Assembly: GCF_001612555.1 (NCBI RefSeq)
Contig: NZ_CP015110.1
Span: 620,001 to 684,000 of the forward strand
Length of the DNA: 64,000 bases
Reading direction: 5' to 3'
Source of the DNA: Acinetobacter sp. TGL-Y2
Lineage (GTDB): Bacteria > Pseudomonadota > Gammaproteobacteria > Pseudomonadales > Moraxellaceae
The notes beneath the pieces were generated by a model that saw only the letters and a list, made by a program, of their open reading frames with translations, did not search any database and had not been told where the DNA came from. How positions within the stretch are numbered: position 1 is the stretch's first letter; the number at the start of each line of letters is the position of its first letter. This document shows positions 19,312-22,615 of the stretch, piece after piece. Position numbers and translations under genes: made by a program.

Positions 19312-19342
19312 TAAAAAAAACCCGCTGATAGCGGGTTTTTTT
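19312..19342. terminator. Bidirectional terminator between atuF and the Roadblock operon
   Basis: CCCGCT-GAT-AGCGGG is flanked by an A-run (19312-19320) and a T-run (19336-19342), so it can terminate transcription from both sides of these convergent operons. Confidence 0.92.
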
Positions 19343-19353
19343 AACGAAATAGA

Positions 19354-19767
19354 TTATTGATCAGCTTCAATGATGGCATTTTTGGCTTGCTTTAAACTGT
19401 AGAGCAGCTGACCCAATAGCACATCTTTGGCTGCCAATGTGACGATCACCATCGGATGTTGATTTGAGGGTACGGAGGTCAAAATCGCTTTACCATTTTC
19501 AGCATCCAGCGTCATACTATTACAACCTGTAAGTTGAATCTCATTCAAAAATGCGCTCACCATGGCAAGAATTGAGCTGCTGACAGCAGCAAGCTTACTG
19601 GAGTTGAAGTCGGTACGTCGTGAAACGGATTCGAGTTCAAAACCGTCAGATGAGCAGATCATAATATAATCGACCCCTTTCACATGCATCAATACATCAT
19701 GAATCTGCTCTTTTGCAAATTGCACTAACTTTTCTGGCGCTTGTCTTTGTTTAAATGCTGGAATCAT
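19354..19767 (-). CDS. Roadblock/LC7-domain protein
   Basis: A 137-residue protein with a Roadblock/LC7 fold over most of its length, seen in GVDYIMICSSDGFELESVSR (31-50) followed by the helix and strand pattern to about residue 125. Bacterial Roadblock proteins, such as MglB, bind small Ras-like GTPases and act as activating proteins or scaffolds. It lies 10 bases after the GTPase gene, so the two are very likely co-translated partners. Last gene of the operon; cytoplasmic. Confidence 0.85.
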   Translation of the reverse strand: MIPAFKQRQAPEKLVQFAKEQIHDVLMHVKGVDYIMICSSDGFELESVSRRTDFNSSKLAAVSSSILAMVSAFLNEIQLTGCNSMTLDAENGKAILTSVPSNQHPMVIVTLAAKDVLLGQLLYSLKQAKNAIIEADQ

Positions 19768-19777
19768 ATCAATCGCC

Positions 19778-20311
19778 TTACATATGCTCTATTTCTAACT
19801 TGGTGATGAGTGTTTCAATCAACATTAAAACATCTTCTTTTTTGCGTGCATCGATAAAAAATAGCGGGTAATTGAGATGATTAGAGACTAACCATTCCCG
19901 ATATTGGTGCGTGGAGTGGTCAAGGTTTTCATCAATATGGGTCACACCAATAGCAATATTTTCAGCGTGATGTTTAAAGAAATCTAAATAATATTGAAGC
20001 TCATCAAGGGGAGCATTTACATTGTGATCAATCAGAATAATCGTGCCAATCGCTCCTTGGCTAATGACACCCCACATAAAATTAAAACGCTCTTGACCAG
20101 GTGTACCGTATAAACCTATTTTTGCCCCATCTTCTAAAGTGATTTCGCCATAATCAATCCCTACAGTGGTTAACATTTTTTTATGGCTAGCATCGTCTGT
20201 ATTCAGCGTTTCCGTGGCGAGAACTGGAATTTCCGAAAGCGACTTAATGGCCTCTGTTTTACCTGATCCCATTGAACCAGCAAATACAATTTTATATTTT
20301 TGAATAATCAT
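19778..20311 (-). CDS. Small Ras-like GTPase of the Roadblock operon
   Basis: A 177-residue P-loop GTPase. G1 is GSMGSGKT (12-19), a candidate G2 threonine lies in TTVGIDYG (48-55), and G3 is GTPGQERF (69-76). The G4 motif that normally reads NKxD is THID (124-127), as in the COG2229-type GTPases found beside Roadblock proteins. It is a likely nucleotide-controlled switch, regulated by the Roadblock proteins encoded on both sides. Effector and cellular role are unknown; polarity or surface motility, as with MglA, is one possibility. Confidence 0.87.
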   Translation of the reverse strand: MIIQKYKIVFAGSMGSGKTEAIKSLSEIPVLATETLNTDDASHKKMLTTVGIDYGEITLEDGAKIGLYGTPGQERFNFMWGVISQGAIGTIILIDHNVNAPLDELQYYLDFFKHHAENIAIGVTHIDENLDHSTHQYREWLVSNHLNYPLFFIDARKKEDVLMLIETLITKLEIEHM

Positions 20312-20323
20312 ACGAACCTTGAT

Positions 20324-21271
20324 TTAAAAACCGAATCGACGTTTTAATTTCTGGAAAAAGTTTGCTATTTGGGAAGATTCAGCTGATTCTTGAATCTTGG
20401 TATTTTGCACAGAAAATCGAACATCTTTAAGCGATATTTTTTCAATATTTTTGATGGCTTGATTGGCGATAACAAACTTTTTAACAGTCATCAATGAAAT
20501 ATTCAGTTTTTCTGAAACTGTGGAAACCTGTGCGCCTAGACTAAATGCTGCCGATAGTTGCAAAATGATTTTTTGATCCGTCACAATAGGCTGTGGCCAA
20601 TAATGCAATCTAAAAGTGGCAAAATCATCTGGTAGGTGCATAAAGTGAGGTGAATTCCAAATCAGTTCAAACAACCAATTTTCTAAATTTTTTTGATGTT
20701 TACGTGAAATTCTTAAAAAATCTGAGGTTGTTGCATCCACATACATAATACTTTCATTGGTCATAAATGTTTGGCGAGTAGTATCGGGCCATGCCCAGTG
20801 TGCATGGTGATCCAACACCGCAATGGTTCCATACTGATCTTTCAATAATAGTTTTCGGCTGTATTCATTGTATATTTGATTAAAAAGCTGGGAATCCATA
20901 GCTGAGTTTGAATCAAGGTCTGATGGTTGGAATTGCACAGGGGTATTTGATATCATTTTCAGACAGGATTGAATCAAATTTTGTAGAGCTGCCTCATCTG
21001 TGATTGGTGTACATAATAAATGTGGATCATTTGCTCGTTTAACTTTAGATACTTTCAGATAAGGAATATTTTTTTCATTAATAATTTTTTGGATATTATT
21101 ATTTTCAAAAAAATCTTCATTGATAACCAAGCAATCTAATTTATTGTCTGTAATATGTGTCCAGTTAATTTGAGTGGAATGTGGTAATCCATTTATTAAT
21201 CTCTTCTTAATATCATCTATGGTTAATAATCCTAATCCCGATATTGCTATATTTACACAGTTATTATTCAT
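20324..21271 (-). CDS. Unrecognised protein of the Roadblock/GTPase operon, receiver-like N-terminus
   Basis: A 315-residue protein not assigned to a family. Residues 5-105 alternate strands and helices (VNIAISG, DCLVINED, PYLKVSK, HLLCTPIT) like a receiver domain, without the acidic pair or clear phosphorylation site. The middle contains GTIAVLDHHAHWAWPD (148-163). Residues 234-272 (KIILQLSAAF...VSEKLNISLMTVKKFVIAN) look like a helix-turn-helix. It lies 12 bases before the GTPase gene. A role as effector or adaptor of the GTPase is inferred from position only. Confidence 0.75.
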   Translation of the reverse strand: MNNNCVNIAISGLGLLTIDDIKKRLINGLPHSTQINWTHITDNKLDCLVINEDFFENNNIQKIINEKNIPYLKVSKVKRANDPHLLCTPITDEAALQNLIQSCLKMISNTPVQFQPSDLDSNSAMDSQLFNQIYNEYSRKLLLKDQYGTIAVLDHHAHWAWPDTTRQTFMTNESIMYVDATTSDFLRISRKHQKNLENWLFELIWNSPHFMHLPDDFATFRLHYWPQPIVTDQKIILQLSAAFSLGAQVSTVSEKLNISLMTVKKFVIANQAIKNIEKISLKDVRFSVQNTKIQESAESSQIANFFQKLKRRFGF

Positions 21272-21335
21272 AGCTACACTTTAATATTTATTCGAGAAAA
21301 GCCCATTTATGAAATAATAAATGGGCATTAAAGCA

Positions 21336-21695
21336 TTACGAAAAATCTAATTCATTTTCAAAGCTTTTTAACTCATGTCGTGCCATAGCAAGATTCGATT
21401 TGCTCCGGTCTAATACTAAATAAAGGAAAATATTCTGATTTTTTTCTAAGGGACGAATTAAATGATATTGTTTCCCTAAGGTAATCAAGATATCTTCAAT
21501 ATTATCGTTCAAGTTGAGTGCTTTAGCAACTTTGCGCTTTGATCGAATGACTTCTGTATTACCTGCGGCTGCTAGCTCAAGGTCAATCCCACCTCCACCT
21601 TGCGTCGCTAGTGCTAATCCACTTTCACCATCTACTAATGCAGCAGCACAGAAGCCATCAATTGATTCTAGTGATTGTAATGTTACTTTACCCAT
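21336..21695 (-). CDS. Roadblock-like small protein, first gene of the operon
   Basis: A 119-residue protein from the ATG at 21695 (a GTG four codons upstream is possible). Segments [20 protein letters not shown] (15-34) and [19 protein letters not shown] (86-104) resemble the strand pattern of Roadblock/LC7 domains, though less clearly than the last gene of this operon. A GAGTGAG stretch about 8 bases before the ATG is the likely ribosome site. It leads an operon read leftward with the 315-residue protein, the GTPase and the second Roadblock protein. Confidence 0.75.
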
Positions 21696-21923: not shown

Positions 21924-21952
21924 AAAAAAAGCGACCTAATGATCGCTTTTTT
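21924..21952 (-). terminator. Terminator downstream of the 216-residue membrane protein gene
   Basis: AAAAAAAGCGA and TCGCTTTTTT flank an 8-base loop. On the minus strand the stem ends in a T-run and lies 13 bases after the stop at 21965. Confidence 0.75.
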
Positions 21953-21964
21953 ATTTAAAACAAA

Positions 21965-22615
21965 TTAAGCAAATATGGTTTGCAAGGCACAGTACAGTAC
22001 AGCGAGAATAAAGATTGCAACGGCAGGCTCTACAATTTTTGACCATGTTGGTACAGTAACAACAATTGGCTCAGCAACTATAGGAGTATCTACGTGTGGA
22101 TGGGTGACCATATGATTAAATTCCTTCATCGTTTGGTCTAATGATAACTCTTCTTGCTCTACAGGTTGAGAACCAATCAGTTCAGTTAGTTCGTTTGTTG
22201 ACCAAACCCAGTCTTTTGCATGACCGGAAAGATGCTCAATTTGCCCAAGAAGCAATTCACGCATACCACGAACCTTATATTGACCGGTAACATCAAGCTG
22301 TTTGAGTTCATTGATTTGTAGAGTCAAAATTTCACTGGTTGCCGCTTCAAGTTCAGTTTTGGATAAGGTCGACTGATTGTGCTTTGAGGTGGTCAGGTGT
22401 CGTGCCACTTCTTGAATATAAAGTTGATCTTGAGAATGAATTTCATGATAGATTTTATCTTCATCTTTACGCCACAAACTAATCAACTTACCCAGGCTTA
22501 AGGTATTGATTTCATTTAAATACTCGCAGCGCTCTTCTGAAGAATATTGGCGAAGAAGCTGAGGCTTTTGAATCTTAATCTGCTCAGCAAAATATTGTAC
22601 TAAATCAAAAGCCAT
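21965..22615 (-). CDS. Hypothetical protein with C-terminal membrane anchor
   Basis: A 216-residue protein, family not recognised. Residues 1-150 are helical and charged, 150-190 a flexible linker, and 193-214 a hydrophobic segment (VAIFILAVLYCALQTIFA) that would anchor it in the membrane with the bulk in the cytoplasm. A very good ribosome site AGAGGAG lies 6 bases before the ATG. It is 18 bases downstream of sspB and probably co-transcribed with sspA-sspB. Confidence 0.7.
   Translation of the reverse strand: MAFDLVQYFAEQIKIQKPQLLRQYSSEERCEYLNEINTLSLGKLISLWRKDEDKIYHEIHSQDQLYIQEVARHLTTSKHNQSTLSKTELEAATSEILTLQINELKQLDVTGQYKVRGMRELLLGQIEHLSGHAKDWVWSTNELTELIGSQPVEQEELSLDQTMKEFNHMVTHPHVDTPIVAEPIVVTVPTWSKIVEPAVAIFILAVLYCALQTIFA

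Follow-up and report, generated by a model that had tools for sequence, protein, structure and literature searches.

Genome comparisons published in 2014 by Wuichet and Sogaard-Andersen divided the prokaryotic MglA GTPases into five groups (PMC4316618). According to this work, the Group 3 systems are almost exclusively found in beta- and gamma-Proteobacteria, and their typical set consists of a protein with a receiver-like N-terminal and a winged-helix C-terminal region (hereafter, the partner), an MglA GTPase, and one or two MglB homologues. In Groups 2 to 5 a threonine replaces the G2 arginine, G3 reads GTPGQ and the MglB proteins share a common Asp-Gly pair; in Groups 2 and 3 the G4 lysine is often missing and G5 reads DAR (PMC4316618). 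The same authors suggested that the Group 3 partner acts as a transcription regulator. The mgl operon of Snodgrassella has been published as a Group 3 system (PMC11112851), and the only experimental work on this group recognised in the open-access literature concerns an orphan mglB of that organism; no experimental study of the Acinetobacter operon described below was found there.

RomR, which contains a receiver domain (PMC6785124), and RomX constitute the exchange factor (GEF) of MglA (PMC9481161), and the conservon protein MfpC is likely a GEF as well (PMC13343842). In eukaryotes, Npr2 and Npr3 combine C-terminal winged helices with a longin domain related to Roadblock (PMC3521125). The genes called mglA and mglB in PMC10806987 belong to type VI secretion and share nothing but the name with those considered here.

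Layout of the Acinetobacter operon

The window, that is, the whole stretch of 64,000 nucleotides of Acinetobacter sp. TGL-Y2 that was analysed, contains four genes arranged as a single tight operon, with intergenic gaps of 64, 12 and 10 nt. The operon and its bordering signals are the following, in the direction of transcription:

21925..21952, minus strand: terminator-like site dividing the upstream unit (sspA, sspB and a 216-aa ORF) from the operon (terminator scan)
21336..21695, minus strand: RbA, Roadblock-like protein of 119 aa, first gene (ORF list, Pfam and profile searches)
21301..21326, minus strand: stem-loop right behind RbA, then TTTTCT, terminator- or attenuator-like (terminator scan)
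20324..21271, minus strand: receiver/winged-helix partner protein of 315 aa, second gene
19778..20311, minus strand: small Ras-like GTPase of the Group 3 MglA type, 177 aa, third gene
19354..19767, minus strand: RbB, Roadblock/LC7 (MglB-like) protein of 137 aa, last gene

The original prediction of a tight four-gene operon encoding two Roadblock-like proteins, a GTPase and a receiver/helix-turn-helix protein is thus borne out. The same applies to its proposal that a receiver-like protein stands where a kinase is missing, as none of the four proteins matches a kinase model and no kinase was recognised by eye among the neighbouring ORFs. At the downstream end, the operon is separated from a convergent carboxylase gene by an inverted repeat near 19312-19340 that has runs of A and of T; it was detected by eye and is absent from the list of the automated terminator scan. 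The names sspA, sspB, rpsI, glnA, trpG and carboxylase are those we presume from the translations. The 216-aa protein (window 21965-22615) is hydrophobic in a C-terminal segment and matches no Pfam family; its ORF adjoins sspB in all seven loci examined, and the terminator-like site parts it from the operon.

A variant of the Group 3 MglA systems

Very probably, the operon belongs to the Group 3 MglA GTPase systems as an Acinetobacter variant. The traits of this group present in the window are the Thr-Thr pair of G2, GTPGQ, THID, DAR, the Asp-Gly pair of RbB and an adjacent, homologous receiver/winged-helix partner. With the systems of Neisseria, Xanthomonas, Stenotrophomonas and Snodgrassella it shares the GTPase motifs, the partner, the adjacency of both genes and an Asp-Gly MglB-type Roadblock protein, and the described Group 3 core likewise has no kinase gene. 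Unlike its described counterparts, the receiver in the window is devoid of the phospho-acceptor and the Lys, and no TPR gene is seen upstream of the operon. The additional Roadblock protein also differs: in the window it is RbA, in first place, whereas elsewhere in Group 3 it is a 219-aa type located between the GTPase and MglB (61 of 69 gap ORFs). What is new in the variant is the receiver without phospho-acceptor residues, the RbA-type Roadblock protein in front, and the hairpin after RbA.

The locus had been singled out as a conservon-like, undescribed signalling module. The first part of that description holds insofar as this is an MglA-family GTPase/Roadblock operon that shares with the Actinobacterial conservons (AGPS; Group 2, CvnA-D) a Roadblock protein, a GTPase and a third protein, a G4 without Lys and a DAR G5. 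However, the operon is nearer to Group 3 than to Group 2, and membership of the conservons is ruled out by the missing histidine kinase CvnA and by a G4 that reads THID instead of the NxFD of Group 2 (definition in PMC4316618). The second part has to be abandoned, since the operon fits a type of system already described in silico in 2014 (PMC4316618). The Myxococcus MglA/MglB/RomR module (Group 1) resembles the window in having a GTPase, a Roadblock GAP and a receiver-domain partner, but the GTPase in the window lacks the G2 Arg and has GTPGQ instead of TVPGQ (PMC4316618), and its partner, whose gene lies within the operon, carries a winged helix.

The GTPase

The motifs of the GTPase are located as follows:

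20255..20278, minus strand: G1/P-loop GSMGSGKT, residues 12-19
20165..20170, minus strand: G2 Thr-Thr, residues 48-49, without Arg
20093..20107, minus strand: G3 GTPGQ, residues 69-73
19931..19942, minus strand: G4 THID, residues 124-127, T-x-x-D without Lys
19844..19852, minus strand: G5 DAR, residues 154-156

The G4 motif had been regarded as aberrant. Although it does read THID and has no Lys, all 26 GTPases compared across the class carry T-x-x-D or T-x-x-E at this position, so a G4 of this kind characterises the group and does not set the operon apart. A Lys as second residue of G4 occurs in four of these 26 proteins and also in the Snodgrassella GTPase (TKMD), and G5 is DAR in 22 of the 26. 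A profile search of the PDB with the alignment of class GTPases gave 207 matches, the best 60 of which bear mostly Rab-type names and include no MglA; the kinship with MglA therefore rests on the motifs, the genetic context and the comparison with the Snodgrassella GTPase, to which the window protein is 39% identical over 169 residues.

The partner protein: receiver, winged helix and tail

Three regions can be distinguished in the partner:

20948..21271, minus strand: residues 1-108, receiver fold without the phospho-acceptor Asp or conserved Lys in the aligned columns (model and alignment)
20426..20647, minus strand: residues 209-282, winged helix-turn-helix (model)
20327..20380, minus strand: C-terminal basic amphipathic helix ANFFQKLKRRFGF

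The receiver columns were counted in an alignment from which the window itself (L062) and two further loci (L088 and L144) had been left out, and whose 102 rows from outside the genus represent 98 distinct sequences, some genomes having been met in two collections. Neither the Asp nor the Lys stands in its aligned column in any of the 13 Acinetobacter rows, a count that depends on the alignment because these rows are gapped at the Lys column; on the aligned columns, we reject the reading as a canonical response regulator. In one of the 13 (L014), an Asp was seen by eye near the end of strand 3. Outside the genus, the Asp is present in 67 of 102 rows and the Lys in 83, and 58 of the 74 rows with all three receiver columns filled have both. 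The receiver fold itself and these frequencies would suit a functional two-component output that receives its phosphate from a histidine kinase encoded elsewhere, but with both residues missing from these columns in all 13 Acinetobacter rows we regard such a role as very unlikely. As the receiver lacks phospho-acceptor residues, the switch is probably driven by a binding partner or a ligand and not by a kinase.

In an hhalign comparison with Group 3-type partners, to which the protein is homologous (E 2.3e-8, probability 95), only the C-terminal domain was aligned. A receiver fold and a winged helix in one chain are what would be expected of a DNA-binding, response-regulator-like transcription factor, whose activity would be switched by the GTPase/Roadblock pair and whose output would be gene expression, as proposed for Group 3 in the 2014 survey (PMC4316618). 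In agreement with this, the Pfam model HTH_40 gives weak matches in 6 of 79 partner C-domains (best E 4e-4), and helix 3 of the window protein, LMTVKKFVIANQA, contains two Lys. Only nine of the 79 rows, the window protein among them, have two such residues in this helix, however; the other 70 have none or one basic residue (counted without a control set). Moreover, the solved structures closest to the winged-helix model are domains of the GTPase-regulatory GATOR1/SEA (NPRL2/NPRL3) and of FAM91A1, with scores near the noise level of the method, while solved DNA-binding winged helices score about 5 or less. The basic amphipathic tail, whose pattern recurs in 95 of 102 non-Acinetobacter rows (again counted without a control set), is suited to membrane docking. 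On this evidence, we consider a transcription factor unlikely, although it deserves to be kept in mind more than a phosphorylated output.

We place at close to even odds the alternative that the partner is a GTPase-binding GEF and/or scaffold whose tail docks at the membrane or the pole. This proposal draws on the low content of basic residues in helix 3, on the adjacency of partner and GTPase genes and their fusion in locus L088 (see below), and on the precedent of RomR/RomX and MfpC. A far bolder extension would class the C-domain with the GTPase-regulatory winged helices of NPRL2/NPRL3 and FAM91A1, treat the Group 3 systems as a bacterial counterpart of GATOR1-Rag-Ragulator, and see the Acinetobacter module as a phosphorylation-free switch based purely on protein interactions. 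Both sides do have a winged helix of similar shape, which in the eukaryotes belongs to small-GTPase controllers, a likeness that is tentative, but the window partner carries a receiver instead of a longin domain and no sequence similarity emerged from the PDB profile search, in which its C-domain retrieved nothing at E <= 10. Foldseek gave no significant match with the full-length partner and no significant E-values with the winged-helix model. We regard this extension as improbable. In conservons, CvnC is a DUF742 protein; the window partner has no match to DUF742 at E <= 1 (Pfam), and of the 39 families matched by the other 78 partner C-domains, the 25 listed do not include it, although a distant relationship may exist.

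Two Roadblock proteins and a hairpin

RbB matches the Pfam Robl_LC7 model above the cut-off, and its Asp-Gly pair (residues 41-42) is invariant in 14 aligned rows. RbA reaches that model only below the cut-off. Nevertheless, the profile of its homologues matches the Roadblock/LC7 chain 7yh1_D of the PDB (E 4.9e-4) and can be aligned to that of RbB along 109 columns (E 3.8e-4, probability 36), results that support the predicted Roadblock-like nature of the first gene product. The Asp corresponding to that of RbB is kept in 17 of 17 RbA rows, followed by G in some and by S in others.

RbA relatives were seen outside the genus in four loci (L023, L063, L177 and L183). Homologues 38-39% identical to RbA occur at L060/L196 and L061/L202, where no GTPase of the operon's family was found in the 10-13 kb of sequence retrieved, and other congeners hold further copies with 34-36% identity.

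The stem-loop behind RbA is one of two terminator-like sites in the scanned stretch, a number to be read against 1.6 (sd 1.4) in shuffled sequences. A hairpin recurs in the same gap of the orthologous operons, with z <= -2 in 15 of 17 folded gaps and a weak signal in the other two; the set comprises 17 of the 18 four-gene operons, the window included and L017 dropped. Because of this hairpin, RbA may be produced in larger amounts than the proteins of the downstream genes.

Conservation in Acinetobacter and in the class

Searches detected the GTPase in 19 of 36 congeners; over all 58 genomes searched, its own included, the number is 22. RbA is likewise present in 19 of the 36 congeners; both occur together in 18 and are both absent from 16 (Fisher p 5.8e-8, a value that ignores kinship). 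In 17 of the 36, the complete set of four genes is present in the order of the window. One further congener is without RbA at the head (G005), and another has the partner-GTPase pair only (G022). The surroundings recur too, with sspA, sspB and the 216-aa ORF adjoining all seven main loci fetched (L187-L192 and L203), six of which have the four genes. The operon is hence not scattered in relatives, as the original prediction also required.

Identity to the window in orthologous operons is about 80-83% for RbA, 60-74% for the GTPase, 58-71% for RbB and about 23-46% for the partner. A decaying operon without present function might be suspected from the patchy presence of the GTPase among congeners and from the degraded GTPase of a second copy in the same genome (see below). 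Yet the identities of RbA and GTPase, the retention of all GTPase motifs in the orthologous operons, and the fixed place and order of the genes speak against it, and we give this possibility next to no weight.

Across the class, related GTPases occur in 68 of 369 sampled genomes, own included. In 80 named loci, the best 80 of 450 relatives, a partner gene adjoins the GTPase in 76 (assigned by script) and an RbB-like gene lies no more than 3.5 kb away in 73; the four cases without an adjacent partner are three contig ends and one over-long ORF (L119). In Snodgrassella (L171) the order is TPR protein, partner (381 aa), GTPase, 219-aa Roadblock protein and 121-aa MglB. The TPR-like protein encoded there upstream of the partner gene (L171:1325-2830) has an N-terminal hydrophobic stretch, and ORFs resembling it were detected by phmmer in 23 of 110 loci (L062-L171, L171 included). 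One genome of the class that belongs to another family (L063, G317:C12) shows the same order as the window, RbA-partner-GTPase-RbB, with an RbA 71% identical.

Paralogues, fusions and rearranged relatives

Elsewhere in the genome, a second pair of partner and GTPase genes (G000:C1:2362510-2363031 and upstream; L186) is flanked by a glnA-like and a trpG-like gene. The GTPase of this pair retains G1, THLD and DAR, has SS in G2 and lacks GTPGQ; judged by the degraded G2 and G3, it is possibly locked or non-hydrolysing. In this genome the Pfam Roadblock model finds RbB alone (RbA escapes it), and tblastn queries with both Roadblock proteins gave nothing in 13 kb around the second pair, which therefore seems to lack a Roadblock protein of its own.

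Paralogous modules in three congener loci (L193, L197 and L201) follow the order GTPase, RbB (in L201), partner and RbA. In L200 (G031:C82) a single GTPase is clustered with three ORFs similar to the partner and three similar to Roadblock proteins, the latter of varying strength.

Partner and GTPase form one 513-aa ORF in L088 (499-2037), where a stretch similar to the amphipathic tail is kept ahead of the GTPase. Since a second single ORF, in L144, contains ambiguous bases and may be a run-on, L088 is the sole fusion of this kind counted. Fusions were also looked for in 14 longer GTPase ORFs fetched from the 369-genome class search. In four of them (L173:691-2187, L175:1547-3067, L176:592-2319 and L185:1665-3116) a Pkinase domain (Pfam, E 3e-35 to 4e-41) precedes a Group 3-like GTPase, and some relatives therefore do have a built-in kinase. 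Seven others (L172, L174, L178, L180, L181, L183 and L184) were judged by eye to be out-of-frame or run-on extensions and were not counted; L177, L179 and L182 have extensions too.

Type IV pili as a candidate output

MglA and MglB act on type IV pili in Myxococcus and Thermus, and by analogy the operon might set the placement or activity of these pili, and with it twitching and transformation, an idea compatible with either mechanism, GTPase regulation or transcription. Type IV pili or surface behaviour are the leading guess for the output, albeit a tentative one that we hold to be less likely than not. Besides the action of Mgl systems on type IV pili elsewhere (PMC11112851), this guess is favoured by the changed soft-agar spreading of Snodgrassella, a Group 3 host, upon mutation of its orphan mglB (PMC11112851), and by the TPR protein with an N-terminal hydrophobic segment ahead of the Snodgrassella operon. 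Against it, every one of the 58 relatives has pilT-family genes (57 of them above the curated cut-off), operon-free congeners included, so the operon is dispensable for having genes of this family, and we reject a role essential for having pili. As the same search gave matches in 13 of 14 control genomes but only five over the cut-off, the cut-off count (57 of 58) is the safer one. In the window and the fetched loci no pilus gene was recognised beside the operon, and none of the neighbouring genes points to a target.

A model for the switch and its significance

The operon is real and conserved, and systems of its general type were already predicted in 2014 by genome comparison. The explanation of the whole that we find best, and moderately probable, is a Group 3 switch with Roadblock proteins as GAP or co-regulators, the partner as GEF or scaffold, and an input other than a kinase. 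The GTPase, whose motifs are observed, would cycle between its GDP and GTP forms. By its MglB-type family, RbB, and probably an assembly of RbA and RbB, would serve as GAP or co-regulator. The partner would bind the GTPase as exchange factor and/or scaffold rather than act as a phosphorylation-driven transcription factor, and its basic amphipathic tail may dock the complex at the membrane or the pole.

The receiver of the Acinetobacter protein looks unable to be phosphorylated, which would mean that the wiring of the GTPase is separable from kinase input, and the compactness of the operon makes the roles of the partner and of the Roadblock proteins directly testable. If the winged helix is indeed a regulator of the GTPase, the published guess of a transcription factor for Group 3 would be wrong.
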